64,000 nt of DNA from assembly GCA_036320915.1 (NCBI GenBank), contig JAXBDG010000011.1, forward strand, positions 642,501 through 706,500, given 5' to 3'. Positions 41,212 through 47,803 of the stretch are shown one piece after another. A model generated the notes under the pieces. That model saw only the letters and a list, made by a program, of their open reading frames with translations. It was not told where the DNA came from and searched no databases. This DNA comes from Linnemannia elongata. Taxonomy: Eukaryota; Mortierellomycota; Mortierellomycetes; Mortierellales; Mortierellaceae. The translations under genes were made by a program, and so were the position numbers. How positions within the stretch are numbered: the first letter of the stretch is position 1; every line of letters begins with the position of its first letter.

Positions 41212-41498
41212 CTCGTTTTTTTGTGACTCCACTTCCGCTTGAGATTCATTGGACAATGATTTTTCTTGGTGGAAAGGGAGAAAGGAAGGGAACAATGAGA
41301 CGCACGCAACACATGCGACTGAAATATTTACAACTACGCCACCACGGCGCGAGGGTGCAGGACAATGGACGCCATAATTCTCTTATTGGCTGAAGCTAAC
41401 CATGAAATCTTTCCTATTATGGAATAATTTTTACTGTCAATTGACACCATAATACAATGAATTAGGCACAATGAGATCATTTGACATAATACATTTAT

Positions 41499-41743
41499 TC
41501 ACTGGCATTTTCGCCCAGCACTGCTCTCGTTCAGGCCTTTGACTTGAAGATAGGCGCTGTGTAGCAAAGCTACTGTTTCTTGGAGGTACTGTAACGAGCA
41601 CTTTCGTTTCTTTTTGGCCCCGAGCGCTTGGTAAATCTTCTCAAGAAGGGCCATTAACTCTGCCTCGCCGTCCCCAAATGCTTGGACATTCTCGCCCTCA
41701 TTGGCCAATAAATCAGCCTGTCTCTTTTCAGCCCTCTAAAAAA
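41499..41743 (-). CDS. Orphan coding exon, possibly the 3' end of a broken gene
   Basis: A minus-strand open frame follows a strong acceptor (GCTATTTTTTAG) and ends in TGA, encoding about 80 residues. It begins RAEKRQADLLANEGENVQ, continues through two amphipathic helices (AELMALLEKIYQALG and LQYLQETVALLHSAYLQV) with a Lys/Arg cluster between, and ends in GRKCQ. Codon use and helix periodicity look real, but no ATG or upstream exon could be joined with confidence in 41750-42330. It may be the last exon of a small gene or a relic of a mobile element next to the fusion gene at 42427. The family is not recognised. Confidence 0.35.
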
Positions 41744-41928
41744 TAGCTCTTTGACAACTCATTTGATGGACTCAAGTTTTCGGTTGATTTGACATATTTT
41801 ATATCGCTCTATTCACTAATATATACGGCCGGCAGCCACTGCGTTGAGACCTTTGACTCCAAGCTGTTAAGTGGGAGTGCGGGGAGTAACGAAAAGAATG
41901 AGTTGACTTTATTCATATCACACGAAGG

Positions 41929-42165
41929 ATGAAAGCTATAAAAATAGCACCTGATCCGTGCTCAAGTCCTGCCACCACGGTTTACATGTATTGGAGGTAC
42001 ACTTCTCTTTTTTCGGGCTCTTATCTCATGGAATACTTCGACAGTGATCAGCGCTTGTTCTCGCTAGCCTCGAACGCCAAGGTGTTTGCGACCTCCCGTT
42101 CTGACTTCTCTCGTTCTCATTCTTCTGCCCGATGCTTTTTGAAGGTGAAGACGGATATGCGGTGA
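41929..42165 (+). CDS. Short open frame, doubtful
   Basis: A 78-codon frame beginning with ATG (MKAIKIAPDPCSSPATTVYM) lies just upstream of the large fusion gene. Composition is fairly balanced and unlike the leaders of the window, but no domain is recognised. A GTACAC donor-like site at 41997 could also make it a first exon. It may be coincidental. Confidence 0.2.
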   Translation: MKAIKIAPDPCSSPATTVYMYWRYTSLFSGSYLMEYFDSDQRLFSLASNAKVFATSRSDFSRSHSSARCFLKVKTDMR

Positions 42166-42260
42166 AATACTATTCTCCACAGTCAATTAGATTGATATCA
42201 CAACTGGTTAACTCTTGCACGAGAGTAAAGTCTCCACAAAAGCAAACTTCCATGCACAGT

Positions 42261-42268
42261 TATATAAG
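42261..42268 (+). promoter_or_regulatory. TATA box of the FEN1-Fanzor fusion gene
   Basis: TATATAAG lies 166 bases before the ATG at 42427, a spacing similar to that of the ABC transporter gene. It suggests the gene has its own promoter. Confidence 0.45.
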
Positions 42269-42426
42269 CTTCCGTTATCTGGCCTATAACGCTTTTCTCG
42301 CCGTCGCGGCCCCTTAAACGCATGATCCTCACTCAATCACCCTTGTCCCAACAGCTTCACCCATCGTTCCCCTCTTCTCAATTCCTCACATCACCCCCAC
42401 TCTCATCTCATCCGCCACTAGCCAAT

Positions 42427-45400
42427 ATGGGACTGAAGGGGTTCTATCCTTGGCTCCGCAAGAAGAAAGGCTACCATCCCACGCTTCGTCACCCCATGCA
42501 CCACCACCTGCCTGACGACGCCATTATTCGCGTGGATGTTTTGTCTTTCTTTACCAAAATTCGCGGAATCTACACCAAGCATGCAGACGACAAAACAAAG
42601 GCGCAAGCTATCCTATTCGAGCATCTCAAGAAATACGGCGACCCCTCCCACATGGTGTTCTATGTCGACGGCGCCCCTGCTCTCGAGAAGAAGGAGACTC
42701 ACCGTGAGCGAAACGAGAAGCGAGCTAAGGCCCTCAAGAATGCCAAGGTTGCCATTGAGACGCTCGGGAACCGCATCAATCAAGGCAAACCGCCCACCAA
42801 GCAGATGTTCAAGAATGTAGAGAGGAGTCTCCGTGGAGGATTCAAGTGGTCTCTTCAAGATCGGGAAGACTTCGTCCATTTTCTGCAGGCTCAAGAGCTC
42901 GATGCGCACCTTTGCAGGACCGAGGCCGACATTGATATCGCTGCAGAGTGCCAACCCAAAGACGTTGTTCTGACTCAAGACTCGGACTTTTTCGCTTACC
43001 ATTCAGTTACAACGATCTGGCGTCCTGTGGGCAAGTGGGACGACGTCAAGGTCTTAGAATATAGTAGAGAGGCGGTGCTGGCCCAGATACGACTGTCAAC
43101 CACCAAGCTTACTGCACTGGCATGCGTCTCGAGTAACGACCAGAACAAGAACATTCCATCGATGGGGATTGCCACCAACTACAGCATTATAAAGGATCTA
43201 CCCGATACAGGTAAGAACAAATAATTTGCCAGCATGCCCATACCGCCTCTATTCTTTGTGGATATGGCCAGACTCATCATGACTCCTTTGGACCCTTTCT
43301 CTATCAGACGTGCCATCCCTGGTGAAGGAGTATCTCGAGAGCCCACGCGTGGTCTGCCGCGGTCAGGAAGGAATCGATTTCACGGCCTCTATTCTCGTGT
43401 TTACCACAATGACCCAGGAGATTGCTGCTCCAGCGGGCGTATCCTCTGTTCCGTCGCCGTCGTCACAGTCAGTGACGCCTTTGACGGCCTCTGCTGCATC
43501 CATCTTATCGTACGAACTGCTCTGTCATCAGTACAAGATGATCAAGGACCAGCATGCCAGAGCCAAGGAACAGAAGCGCCAAGGGAACTCGAGCAGCAAG
43601 AGGTAACACATTAAGTGATATGTGATTCTCTCACATGACCCTTGATATGGCTTTCCCATCACTTGCGATCAGTCTAACATGCTGTTTGCCTATTACCGCA
43701 CTCTTCGACATGCTCTAGCAACTCTAAACCCAATCGGCAGGGCAAGCATAGGGAATTTAGAAGGCATCGCGTGATCGATCGGCCTGCTCACCAGCCTCGA
43801 GTCTCGCAACAGGTGCACCGGCCGCGGCATTCGTACAAGTCACGCGCAGAACCACAGCAACACGAACAGCCATCGATTTGTAAGCAATATGAACGAAAGC
43901 CCTACACGGCGGAGCAAGAGGCACGGTACCGGGAGTCGACAGCTGAGGCCAGGGGAAAGAAGGCGAAGAAGAAGCGACATCGTGAGACTCAGCGACTCAA
44001 AAAGGAAAAGGAGGTAGCCAAGAAGCCGCCGCCCAAGATCGACGAGATGAACAAGGCTCAGCTGATCAACGCTATGATGTACGAGCATCCCCTTGTTTCC
44101 CTTCAAGTCGGCACAGTCAATGCCAACAGTAAGCGGGCAGCGGCAGCAACAACCACCAACGCCAATCAACTCCCATCGTCTGAACAACAAAAGCAACAAC
44201 AGCAACAAGAGGTTTCTGCCTGCATTTTGGACATTGTTGGGCAAGTTCGCGCGACGAAGAGACATGCACAAGAGTTTTTGGGCACGTTCATCGAGACCGT
44301 CTTTGAGAGCGGTCTGACCGAGAATGACCGTATCATTCTGTACTCTTTGTGTCCCGTCGTCGAGTCCAAAATCCGTATGGTGCCTCAACCCAAGCAGGAT
44401 TCTCAGGCACGCAGCAGCAGTTCCGCTGGCACTCCCAGGAAGGCTGAAGGCAACAAAGACACGGAGGATGAAGGCGACGAAGACGCGGAGGACGAAGACG
44501 ACGAGGATGCGGAGGATGAAGGCGACGAGGATGCGGAGGATGAAGGCGACGAGGATGCGGAGAATGAAGGCGACGATGATGCCGAGCCGTCTGCAATGGA
44601 CAAACCCTTCTTTGCCTTTTACCAGATCCTTCTGGCGCATATCTACTCCCGCAAGATCAAGTTCAAGACGGTTGCCGAGCGGCAAGTTGGCCAGCTGCTT
44701 ACACGTGCCACCTCATTGGGCATCACTTTGCCCTCTGTTCCTCCACGCGACATCTCCTACCAAACCAACGGGTTGCTCGAGTCGACCACCAAGCAACTTT
44801 ATTGCTCCATCAAGAAGATGTATCGCAACGGCTCGGTCGCTCTTGAAAAGAAGGTAATGTGAAAGTTGTCAGTCAAAGCTTTGTCACAGACGAAATACAA
44901 AGAGAATAGCATTCATCAAAACATATTCCAAAACTAACGCTTTTCTTTCCCTCTACATTAGATCAACTCACAAGCGGATGTCCAACCTGGCACGGTACTT
45001 CCCAAAATCGACCCCAAGCTACCTGCCATTGAGAACTACCTACTTTTGAACAAGGCCACCGGCGGATCGAGGCGTATTGCGCCTCTCTCACCCCTGGCGC
45101 CTCGCTACGTTAGCTTCTCTGAGCGGCAGTTGCTTCCACTGTTCTGGTCTTGGCCAACCCTCAAGGACAAGATCCGACGGATGATGAACGAGGATCGCTA
45201 CTTTCAGGATCCGGCCATAGTTCCCTCGCAGGCTGACGCTTTGGACTGGCTAGCCAGGACGACGCCTGGTCGCCTTATAACCTCTTTCCTGTCGGATGTC
45301 GGTCTCCCGCCAGACAAGCACGACAAGGGCTATCGCAAAACAACAACTGTCATGGACATGGACGGCAAGGACGGCAAGGAAGGGCTTCGGGAACACCTCA

Positions 45401-46926
45401 AATGTCTGCGGGCTGAGACGTTTAACCCCAGGGATTGGCACAACAAGGTTTATGTCCTGAAGGGCTCGATCCGGACAAATGGACGTCTGCTGCAGCTGCT
45501 GGCCTACAAGCTGAAGGAACTCCAGTCTGTTCGGTACCGTCGTATTCCCGAGAACAAGGCCCCAAACCCACTCCTTACGACCATTGGTGGTATAAACCGT
45601 TATCTGACCGAAGCTCGAAATGTCTTCTTCTCAGCTGCTGATGTGGAGAATCTGTTGGCTACTGATCCCAGTCAGGTCACGGTGTTGTCACTTGATTTGG
45701 ATACCTCCTGCATCGTTGGTGCCACCGCTTCGTTCCCACCTGGCCAAAGCCCTACCACGTTGGCGCGTCCCCTGTGTCAGGATGGCGGCCAAAAGAAGAG
45801 GAAGAAGAAGGGAAGGCGTGCCAAGCTGAAGCCTGGTGATAGAAAGCGGCAGAGGAAGAGGCAGAAGGCGCGCAAGCTGGGCGGGCGGTCTCTGGCGATT
45901 CGATGCTTTGATCTGGTGGTCAAGCGAAAGGCCGTGTCGCGGCCCACAGACAGCTTTTCCAACTGGCTCGAGGACCGGCGGGAGAACACCATTGGACCAT
46001 CTACCGGCAGAACTATTCAGAAGATTGAAACCGCCCTACCGCCTCTCAAGGGAGAGGGTGCCTCGTTTTGCGAGTATGTAGCAATGCGTCGAGCGTCGGA
46101 GGAAGACCTGGACACCTTTTACAACAACACCAACTTCTGGAAGCACAAATGGGATTCCAACATTTGCCGAAAGGAAGAGTACTACAAGGTTGCTGAGGGT
46201 TTGCTAAACATGATTGGTGGATCTGTCGGTAGGCCGAGATTGCCACACCAAAACGTCGTGATCGCGATTGGGCTAGCCAAGTTCACTGCTGTTCATAGCC
46301 CACCAGCCCTCGATGGCACGTTCCAGGCGTTTTTCATCAGTCTGGTAGGGCATACTGTTGCAACGACTGTTCAGCAAGGTCATTTCTTTACAGGGACATG
46401 CTAATGTTGCTTTTATTTTTTTTTTGTCTTGACTTAGGCTCGTTCGTTGGGCTACCTTGTGGTTGGAATCAACGAATATTATTCCTCCAAACGATGCCCT
46501 CGCTGCCATGCATTTGTCTGTGCGACGTCGGACTGGCGGACCCTTTATTGCACAACTTGCAAACGGTTCCTTCAGCGAGATGTTATGGCCTCCGAAAACA
46601 TGAACAATGCAATCAAGGGTCACCTGATCCACCAGCAGCGGCCGCACTACCTTCAGCCTCGGCGTCAAGACGGATCTTACCCGTGGATGGATGTTGCTGC
46701 TGGTGACGGTAGTGGGGGTGGAGGAGGAGAAGCAGCTGGACCATCGGCTGTGGCCATGGACAGCAATGGAGACGAAGCAGGTGGTGGTGGTGGCGGAGGG
46801 GCAGTAACAGCCAGAAAGAGGCGCGCCGCTTCGATCGTCTCAGTCGAGGTCCCCGACACCGGCATCTATCCCATGACTGACGCCCTCAGTTCTTCGTCCA
46901 GCCACATGGGGAAAAAAGCGAAATGA
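42427..46926 (+). CDS. FEN1/XPG-like nuclease fused to a Fanzor (TnpB-like) RuvC module
   Basis: Five exons (42427-43210, 43308-43602, 43719-44853, 44962-46344, 46438-46926) join in phase to 1361 codons. Residues 1 to about 330 are an XPG/FEN1-type flap endonuclease opening MGLKGFYPWLRKK. The metal-binding acids are in place: D37 (IRVDVLS), D81 (YVDGAP, then Lys/Arg), E166 and D168 (TEADID), D185 and D187 (TQDSDF) and D238 in the helix-turn-helix region. A basic and Gln-rich linker and an acidic repeat (EDEGDEDA, five units) follow. The C-terminus is TnpB/Fanzor-like. RuvC-I is VLSLDLD (D983) and a very basic insertion spans 1016-1044. RuvC-II is VIAIGLAKF, without the TnpB glutamate (E1212 in GINEYY is a candidate substitute). 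The zinc ribbon is C1219/C1222 and C1237/C1240, and RuvC-III is QRDVMASENM (D1247). This predicts a nuclear DNA endonuclease, possibly RNA-guided and transposon-derived. The fused architecture is unfamiliar to me. Confidence 0.85.
44464..44583 (+). repeat. 24-bp coding minisatellite, five units
   Basis: Five tandem 24-base units inside the third exon of the fusion gene encode variants of the octapeptide EDEGDEDA. The units differ by a few substitutions and no frame change, so the array is in-frame and likely length-variable. Confidence 0.85.
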
Positions 46927-47006
46927 CCATAGCAGTTTCACAATGTAGGATGCTCCATAGCGTCTGTAGTTAGATATACATGCCTGTATGCATGTTCCAT
47001 AGTGTA

Positions 47007-47098
47007 GGGTCACGTGAGCTCGGCTACTTCATCGTGGCCGAGGCGCAGCGATTACTCACCTCGGTGACGTAATTTAAGCGCCAATTGTTCTGTGACCC
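47007..47098 (+). ncRNA. Nested inverted repeats downstream of the fusion gene (candidate structured RNA)
   Basis: Beginning 80 bases after the stop codon, three nested complementary pairs occur: GTCAC (47009-47013) with GTGAC (47064-47068), GTGAG (47014-47018) with CTCAC (47055-47059), and CTCGGC (47019-47024) with GCCGAG (47037-47042) around a 12-base loop. GGGTCAC (47007-47013) can alternatively pair with GTGACCC (47092-47098). Guide RNAs of TnpB and Fanzor genes typically lie at or just beyond the 3' end of the gene, so this is a candidate. The same block contains TCACGTGA (47010-47017) and TGACGTAA (47065-47072), typical bHLH and bZIP sites, so it may simply be promoter DNA of the gene at 47804. 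Confidence 0.3.
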
Positions 47099-47803
47099 GG
47101 CGCGACCCGCGGTTTATCTCCTGGATCTGCCTTTCTTCGCTAGATGCATGCATTTTGCAGAAATAGAGGTATTATTGCCGGAGCTTATGGTAGCCAGGCA
47201 GGTGATGGTTGCAGACAAGCAGCGACTGCAAGTCAACGTCTAGTATGTGATATTAGGTAAGTATCTGTTAAGGGTCATCACTTGAATCAGATTTACCTCA
47301 ACTCGCGTTGTCCAAAAGAAGGTGCACCAGCCTGAACCCTATCGATAATGGCGAAGAGAAGACACTGGCATCAATGCTTGGTTCAATGCCTGTTCTCTTG
47401 AACGCCTCTGTGCCCAGTCCTATCTGATACTCCACGTGCGGGCTCGAGGATTATCTTCCACCAACATGTACAGTACATATACAGTGACGCAAGGTCCGAT
47501 GTTGTGACAACTGTCTTGTTACCCCTGGGAGTGAGAGCACAAGGATACCCGCACGTTTATCGACTCGGAGCAGGAGCAGTGGCCACTTCCTCGTTTAATT
47601 ACTTTTGCCTCCTAAAAATAGTCCCTTTGGAGTGACCACAGTACCCAAACAACAACAAAAACTGTCCATCCATTCGCCTCTTCCTTGTTCTTCTTTCAGT
47701 CTCAACTTTTCACTTACACCATTCTGCAAACACATTCGCATTCACATCGACATCCTCACCCATCCACTCACTCTTTCGCCTAAACACTAATTCACATTCG
47801 ACA
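47099..47803. other. Intergenic region upstream of the secreted protein
   Basis: No coding segment is recognised. It must contain the promoter of the gene at 47804 and, if the fusion gene is mobile, possibly its right end, but no terminal inverted repeat or target-site duplication could be found by eye. Confidence 0.4.

Follow-up and report, generated by a model that had tools for sequence, protein, structure and literature searches.

A transposon-borne gene of Linnemannia elongata predicted to join an XPG/FEN1-like nuclease module to a Fanzor-like module

A stretch of 64,000 nucleotides from Linnemannia elongata (GCA_036320915.1, contig JAXBDG010000011.1, positions 642,501 to 706,500, forward strand; hereafter the window) contains a transposable element whose gene joins an N-terminal XPG/FEN1-like nuclease module to a C-terminal TnpB/Fanzor-like module. 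On balance, we consider it likely that the product is a transposon-borne fusion nuclease, which would take its guide RNA from the element's right end and would read a motif in the left flank as its target-adjacent motif (TAM). The genome searched comprises 51 Mb in 32 contigs; all counts given below cover this genome, and locus labels such as C31 or C27 denote its contigs.

The fusion gene

Five exons between positions 42427 and 46926 join into a single frame of 1361 amino acids, which has no internal stops and is interrupted by four GT-AG introns (43211-43307, 43603-43718, 44854-44961, and 46345-46437). The coordinates and splice phases proposed in an earlier sequence-only reading of this DNA are correct, and the residues it named (D37, D81, E166, D168, D185, D187, D238, D983, D1247, and four cysteines) are all in place. 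Splicing was compared by end-to-end alignment with nine of the ten other close loci, the sequence of the tenth (C4) being incomplete; GT and AG are present at all four introns in 9/9 of them. In six of these relatives, exon lengths differ only by multiples of three (largest -72); frame-breaking changes are also present in C28, C23, and C12. The reading frame runs to its end in three of the nine (C31, C16, and C1) and stops four residues short of it in C5; the other five are interrupted.

Residues 360-469 contain no methionine yet can be aligned with divergent relatives, and the ratio of nonsynonymous to synonymous substitution rates (dN/dS) is 0.32-0.45 over residues 362-472; thus, exon 3 is coding ahead of any in-frame start. 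The introns are as similar as the exons between the window and C27 copies (80-86% vs 80-89%), and hence this comparison does not discriminate between gene models. That two adjacent genes were wrongly joined is very unlikely: although exon 2, if unspliced, meets a stop right at the donor (TAA, 43604-43606), the coding constraint within the methionine-free part, the splice sites retained in every relative, and an unchanged order and spacing of the modules at 34 loci stand against it. The gene therefore very probably encodes a single fused polypeptide with XPG-like and Fanzor-like parts, and the earlier claim that one gene joins the two nuclease types is borne out by the stop-free frame, the conserved splice sites, and the profile matches at both ends.

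The acidic stretch of exon 3 is coded by a 24-nt tandem repeat (44417-44608), and exon 3 is shortened by 24, 48, or 72 bp in 6/9 copies. Pfam matches below cut-off comprise DNA_pol_phi over the acidic stretch (0.00045), DUF188 in three of five aligned family members, and C1_1 in two of five (best 0.00071).

The C-terminal TnpB/Fanzor-like module

Failure of profile searches to place the C-terminus with TnpB/Fanzor had been named beforehand as one of two outcomes that would refute the claim, and it did not occur: the zinc ribbon matches Pfam Cas12f1-like_TNB (PF07282) above cut-off, with an E-value of 1.7e-9. The same profile is matched by 5/5 aligned members (best 1.1e-11), as is NCBIfam guided_TnpB (best 6.1e-8), for which the cut-off is 100 bits and the window member reaches 20.6. 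A profile built from the C-terminal part finds the mimivirus TnpB-like protein L79 at 1.1e-5, followed by Cas-phi3 (0.033) and Cas12f (0.044).

The motif described for TnpB/Fanzor proteins, D-X(125,275)-[TS][TS]XX-C4-X(5,50)-RD (Bao and Jurka 2013, PMC3627910; this and the other papers cited by PMC number are cited for parts of their main texts), is present in full, as D983, 231 residues, SSKR, C1219/1222/1237/1240, five residues, and RD1247. The RuvC-II glutamate sits at the alternative position, as E1212 within NEYYSSKRC, and was absent from the earlier residue list. Its context is NEY or NEF in 15/18 copies, namely those with a correctly read exon 5; in C16, C1, and C23, exon 5 was misread into intron 4 by stitching, and these three lie outside the count. 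The canonical RuvC-II glutamate is absent, the segments IAIGLAKF and GVGLGQF containing none. A fingerprint of Fanzor1 is a conserved glycine about 36 residues ahead of the conserved glutamate (G500 and E536 in SPu-1-1p; PMC3627910), and here G1175 and E1212 are 37 apart. RTNG or RTDG, within a conserved GSxRTxG, is a putative counterpart of the TDG motif in the WED domain of Fanzor1.

Two features of RuvC-I weigh against the fusion-nuclease reading. First, and against strict Fanzor membership, DPG in RuvC-I is described as near-exclusive in Fanzors (Yoon et al. 2023, PMC10711439), whereas relatives have DLG, DGG, or DAG and the window copy has DLD; DPG is present in a diverged lineage, L063, which is a zinc-ribbon place with an XPG match upstream. 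Second, the window copy has D985 (45700-45702) next to D983 of the catalytic site, a position held by glycine in all 17 other copies in the comparison. In the other module, it has H192 (43000-43002) where the nine close relatives covering that part have aspartate. Given D985 and H192, the window copy may be impaired. As far as its sequence goes, the C-terminal part is expected to act in the manner of TnpB/Fanzor nucleases, with Fanzor1 as its nearest match and a difference in the DPG fingerprint; the module is probably an RNA-guided nuclease.

The N-terminal XPG/FEN1-like module

The earlier assignment of the N-terminus to the XPG family stands at the level of the family and falls short for the window protein taken alone, which matches Pfam XPG_I at an E-value of 0.0081, with 17.0 bits against a cut-off of 24.9; this shortfall counts against the assignment. 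The same protein finds an XPG/FEN1 chain in the PDB at 0.0039. XPG_I is matched by 5/5 aligned family members (best 7.3e-6), the Pfam XPG cut-off is passed by two fusion copies (C1:1163887 and C8:285901), and a five-member XPG profile retrieves Rad2 (1.1e-5) as well as XPG structures (best 5.5e-5).

The seven acidic positions, which we take to be the metal-binding residues of FEN1 (D37, D81, E166, D168, D185, D187, and D238), are all kept in 16/17 copies covering the XPG part, the exception being copy dC1c with N37 and N238. A single-sequence structure model of exon 1 has a mean predicted local distance difference test (pLDDT) score of 40 and is uninformative on the fold. The N-terminal module is thus predicted to be an XPG/FEN1-like metal-dependent nuclease.

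Age of the fusion and selection

An XPG match lies 3.7-4.9 kb upstream, on the same strand, at 34 of the 54 zinc-ribbon places, and 34 of the 38 XPG places are so paired. The pairing used 38 of 39 XPG places, since the second fragment of one gene was dropped, and a script count of 35 was reduced to 34 because one pair at 7.6 kb re-used an XPG. In four pairs, the XPG parts are only 24-31% identical to that of the window, and a second XPG query finds largely the same places. This distribution indicates that the fused XPG-Fanzor-like order is old. The 20 zinc-ribbon places (of 54) that lack an XPG partner of their own are truncated copies, or lineages in which XPG is absent or too diverged. Seven partnerless places lie less than 16 kb from a contig end (C2:8289, C32:6152, C6:6338, C3:12111, C9:1447301, C27:2931583, and C31:2724596); four of the seven (L060, L062, L064, and L058) have, by eye, the same neighboring leucine-rich open reading frame (ORF). 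Perhaps the contig-end places represent a subtelomeric Fanzor-like lineage or its remnant.

Between the window and C27 copies, dN/dS is 0.125 for XPG, 0.166 for RuvC, 0.09 for the zinc ribbon, and 0.26-0.29 for the linkers, and C12 gives similar values; the rows for the zinc ribbon of C1, C16, and C23 (read into intron 4) and for RuvC of C28 (5-bp deletion) were left out. Even at about 30-38% identity in the XPG and RuvC segments, relatives retain the active-site residues. These substitution patterns point to purifying selection on both modules, from which it may be argued that both nucleases are used.

The mobile element

The fusion gene almost certainly sits in a mobile element (Table 1). 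Among ten loci compared by DNA, the element ends within 6 bp of 47097 in all ten and starts within 6 bp of 41353 in six (C31, C28, C32, C5, C16, and C27), and the flanks are unrelated. The first 120 bp match 30 places in the genome, whole or partial. By protein search, 11 loci including the window match most of the protein (about 70-100% identity by segment), and more diverged loci mostly show 30-50% identity; since 34 of 168 candidates were scored, these copy numbers are lower bounds. A target-site duplication (TSD) of at least 7/8 is found in 12 of the 17 end pairs with both flanks (ten exact), a match never reached in 2000 shuffles of the pairing. The remaining five fall below this level, which counts against the main reading: one has a 9-bp repeat, and four agree at only 5, 4, 2, and 1 of 8 positions, respectively.

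The sequence-only reading had left a novel transposon and a domesticated system as options. The many copies, inverted repeats, and 8-bp duplications favor the former. A domesticated single-copy gene is not supported, since eleven loci match most of the protein in addition to more diverged ones, and transposon ends are present. The element does not conform to MuDR/MULE, as the duplication is exactly 8 bp in 10/17 pairs and 9 bp in one, and no MULE match on C3 falls within the element or close to it; the 8-bp length would fit hAT, yet the window element has no hAT gene.

Right ends vary in step with the protein subfamily. Three elements encode proteins about 30-39% identical to that of the window, yet their left ends are 82-90% alike over 150-390 bp. 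The left end at 41353-41735, for example, is about 90% identical over 383 bp to that of dC1b (L068/L087), the proteins being about 35% identical. Such likeness despite diverged proteins suggests that left ends have been exchanged between subfamilies or are recognized by a shared factor.

An inverted right end lies directly upstream of the C1 copy (C1:391559-391982, L029). The C31 copy (C31:23811-23847, L027) sits at a site of the left-flank motif type, TGACGTAATTT, inside the apparent right end of another family member, and elements of the family may thus target each other's ends.

Table 1. Coordinates of the element, its gene, and its flanking features in the window
Feature	Position	Strand	Basis or content
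Whole element, window copy, 5745 bp	41353..47097	+	Start and end positions shared with other loci, unrelated flanks
Left TSD, CGGCGCGA	41345..41352	+	Same 8 bp on both sides
Right TSD, CGGCGCGA	47098..47105	+	Same 8 bp on both sides
Left terminal inverted repeat	41353..41381	+	End comparison
Right terminal inverted repeat, imperfect	47069..47097	-	End comparison
Left-flank motif of the window insertion, ACGCCAC (6/7 of the family core ACGTCAC)	41336..41342	+	20 left flanks
Exon 1	42427..43210	+	Residues 1-261; XPG/FEN1-like nuclease module
Exon 2	43308..43602	+	Splice sites kept in relatives
Exon 3	43719..44853	+	Up to residue 738; basic linker, acidic stretch, probable start of the Fanzor-like part
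Exon 4	44962..46344	+	Residues 739-1199; GSIRTNG motif, RuvC-I D983, G1175
Exon 5	46438..46926	+	Residues 1200-1361; alternative Glu E1212, C4 zinc ribbon, RD1247, stop codon
3' untranslated/right-end region, candidate guide-RNA scaffold	46927..47097	+	Stable fold
Possible right-end hairpin containing the element's own TGACGTAA	47051..47073	+	Named by eye; weak covariation

The left-flank motif

Left flanks were compared at 20 of the 30 places that match the first 120 bp. The octamer TGACGTCA is matched at six or more of its eight positions in 12/20 flanks at 19 bp from the element and in two more at 20 bp, while any other offset from 8 to 45 gives zero or one flank each. The flanks share the layout (TG)ACGTCAC, two free bases, and then the 8-bp duplication; the information content per position is 0.61-1.14 bits across ACGTCAC (-17 to -11) and 0.27 for each of the preceding T and G. 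Within 30 bp of the element, ACGTCA or TGACGT occurs in none of 28 right flanks. Outside the count, L080 has TGGCGTCG at -19 (6/8) and L082 has GAGCGTCA at -20 (5/8); L081 is without the motif, no end was found at L083 and L084, and the end is altered at L085. C9:206774 (the inner part of a counted copy), C23:1323536, C32:2401125, and C13:948330 are likewise outside the count.

The RNA of SpuFz1 elements extends from the right end into the adjoining flank, and the left repeat is preceded by a short motif (PMC10432273). If the guide of the present element begins at the duplication, the left-flank motif, two bases ahead of it, is in the position of a TAM. Several points weigh against this role. 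In 6/20 left flanks, the window's included, the match falls below 6/8 at offsets 19-20, the window's own flank having 5/8 of TGACGTCA. The motif spans 7-8 nt, compared with 3-5 nt for known Fanzor TAMs (PMC10432273, PMC11423790). Furthermore, the duplication is part of the RNA scaffold in one described Fanzor1, and, if so here, the motif would lie eight bases further from the guide. Judged by analogy, whether the motif, as ACGTCACNN, serves as a TAM is an even call.

Alternatively, the motif may reflect tethering by a host CREB/ATF-type basic leucine zipper (bZIP) factor rather than recognition by a protein of the element, as is said to occur for the retrotransposon Tf1, and TGACGTCA is the cAMP-response-element (CRE) palindrome. 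Since conservation is lopsided, being strong in ACGTCAC and weak in the T and G that precede it, and the motif keeps to within one base of the same place in 14/20 flanks, such tethering appears improbable.

The right end as a candidate guide RNA

The right-end region folds at -62.5 kcal/mol, compared with a shuffled mean of -46.9 (z -3.66), and 0/200 shuffles are as stable. Within it, CGGTGACGT is invariant in 20 aligned right ends, an invariance partly built in because these ends were collected with a pattern containing GGTGACGT (up to 9/35 mismatches). Pairing of the possible hairpin holds in 84.9% of cells, compared with at most 54.8% when slid, and its covariation score is reached by 3/500 shuffles. 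The finer covariation counts tell against the hairpin: one of its nine pairs changes on both sides (4/14 distinct rows), which 465/500 shuffles reach, and the +3 slide control has three two-sided pairs, more than the hairpin itself. RNAalifold prefers another structure for the right ends, with no two-sided change, and Rfam gives two matches far below their gathering scores, both outside the element. The right end is a candidate guide-RNA scaffold.

Movement of the element

Only one gene is evident in the element. Outside it, the longest whole ORF within the element has 87 amino acids; antisense ORFs of up to 290 amino acids overlap the exons and lie outside the search for a partner gene. A pattern for the terminus matches 93 places, compared with 10 for its reversed control, 39 of them with zero or one mismatch and 54 with two. 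Among the 39, the terminus was read at 35, and no partner with these ends was seen; the matches at C6, C16:509588, C21, and C29 lie outside the loci read, as do most two-mismatch places. MULE genes occur at 24 places in the genome, none within 20 kb of a terminus match. In viral contigs, no relative of either module was found (34 and 181 pattern matches, none confirmed).

Four loci were considered and set aside as sources of a transposase. Genes judged by eye to be hAT-like and DDE-like are present in the C9 copy (199859-207610), each inside its own long inverted repeats. A 16.7-kb stretch of C27 (513-530 kb) is a decayed copy with an exon 5 remnant and retroelement-like and leucine-rich-repeat-like frames (by eye). 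At C28:359034, the terminus match falls within an esterase-like frame, and at C5:1163321, a 27-bp match lies beside an inverted duplicate. The structure of two of these loci may be recorded in its own right: at L092 (C9:199800-207700), a hAT-like element with 130-nt inverted repeats is nested in an element with 153-nt repeats and a DDE-like gene, both within a decayed copy of the XPG-Fanzor-like family, and at L096 (C5:1161000-1163420), the 27-bp element-like terminus adjoins an inverted duplicate of a glyoxalase-like frame (by eye).

The element may be a passenger, with an unrelated transposase recognizing its ends and ACGTCAC in trans and the fusion protein acting after excision only, or on rival DNA. 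The inverted repeats with 8-bp duplications, the left ends common to several subfamilies, and the presence of MULE genes in the genome are consistent with this, as are the two settings described for Fanzor1, namely IS4-type elements that have 8-bp duplications and MuDR-like elements that lack a transposase and have 9-bp duplications (PMC3627910). Set against these are the lack of a partner with these ends among the 35 terminus matches read and the long upkeep of both nuclease modules, which needs a use. We regard this reading as plausible, though somewhat short of even.

Self-transposition, in which the RuvC-like and XPG parts of the fusion would excise and insert the element with an 8-bp stagger beside ACGTCAC, with or without an RNA guide, is unlikely. 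It would account for an element with no other ORF above 87 amino acids (antisense frames overlapping the exons aside), for two long both-ended copies that hold only nested elements as judged by eye, for the distance of MULE genes from terminus matches, for right ends that follow the protein subfamily, and for the fixed target geometry. TnpB and Fanzor proteins, however, are not known to move their own elements. The left ends, so alike across diverged proteins, would fit a shared factor. Transposase-less Fanzor elements have also been described already (PMC3627910). We lean towards movement in trans over self-transposition. A stronger form of the latter, a one-protein RNA-guided transposition enzyme whose Fanzor-like part picks ACGTCAC-adjacent DNA while XPG makes second-strand or flap cuts, is doubtful; if true, it would represent a eukaryotic RNA-guided nuclease turned into its own transposase and joining with an 8-bp duplication.

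Proposed mechanism

The element with its ends and copies, the conserved active sites, the selection, and the flank motif come from the sequence, and from them we infer a guide RNA, cleavage, and motif reading for the transposon-borne fusion nuclease. In this proposal, an RNA from the right end would carry the flank as guide, and the Fanzor-like module would read (TG)ACGTCAC-NN as the target-adjacent motif and cut the empty site or the sister chromatid after excision, with repair of the cut restoring the element. The XPG module would cut displaced-strand or flap structures that arise from cleavage and repair. Insertion would be performed by a transposase in trans, which is favored, or with help from the fusion.

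Comparison with known systems

How Fanzors, the eukaryotic RNA-guided nucleases, serve the transposons that carry them is an open question. A long-standing fusion with a structure-specific nuclease, in which both halves are under selection, suggests a physical step that accompanies or follows the cut. Because the family provides many insertion sites that have a motif at a fixed distance, it lends itself to direct tests of how the motif is read, whether a guide is used, and what the second nuclease does; a natural cut-and-trim fusion, if it is one, would also be of interest to genome engineers. Going by literature searches, the XPG-Fanzor-type fusion is apparently unpublished: among the papers listed, none describes a Fanzor/TnpB-XPG fusion in its title or the start of its abstract, and "XPG" is absent from the main texts, as distinct from the supplements, of PMC10711439, PMC10432273, PMC11423790, and PMC3627910.

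The N-terminus shares with XPG/Rad2/FEN1 nucleases the seven acidic positions in the same order and a profile match to Rad2 and XPG, while the sequence similarity is weak. Academ transposons also carry an XPG nuclease in a DNA transposon, together with a helicase, 3-4 bp duplications, and no Fanzor module. The helicase mentioned for Academ is of the RecQ type (PMC3627910).

A TnpB clade with the alternative glutamate and D-Phi-G (Yoon et al. 2023, PMC10711439) resembles the window's subfamily relatives, which combine D-L-G with the alternative glutamate. However, its members are TnpB proteins, whereas the present gene is spliced and has an XPG module, and D-G-G or D-A-G takes the place of D-L-G in some relatives.

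SPu-1/SpuFz1 (Saito et al. 2023, PMC10432273) is likewise an inverted-repeat element with a single gene, with a glutamate just before the zinc ribbon and a short motif upstream of the left repeat. Its protein of 633 amino acids, 2.1-kb element, and CATA TAM differ from those described here, and no XPG module is reported for it in the main text. Its right-end RNA corresponds to what is a candidate in the present element, and RNA guidance, demonstrated for SpuFz1, is for the fusion an inference from sequence.

Fanzor1 elements without a transposase in Mucorales (ROr-4, PBl-3, and MCi-4; PMC3627910) share with the present element the inverted repeats, a Fanzor gene, the lack of a MuDR transposase, and a duplication of several base pairs. 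While those elements have 9-bp duplications and MuDR-like repeats, the L. elongata element is distinguished by 8-bp duplications, an N-terminal XPG module, and the left-flank motif.

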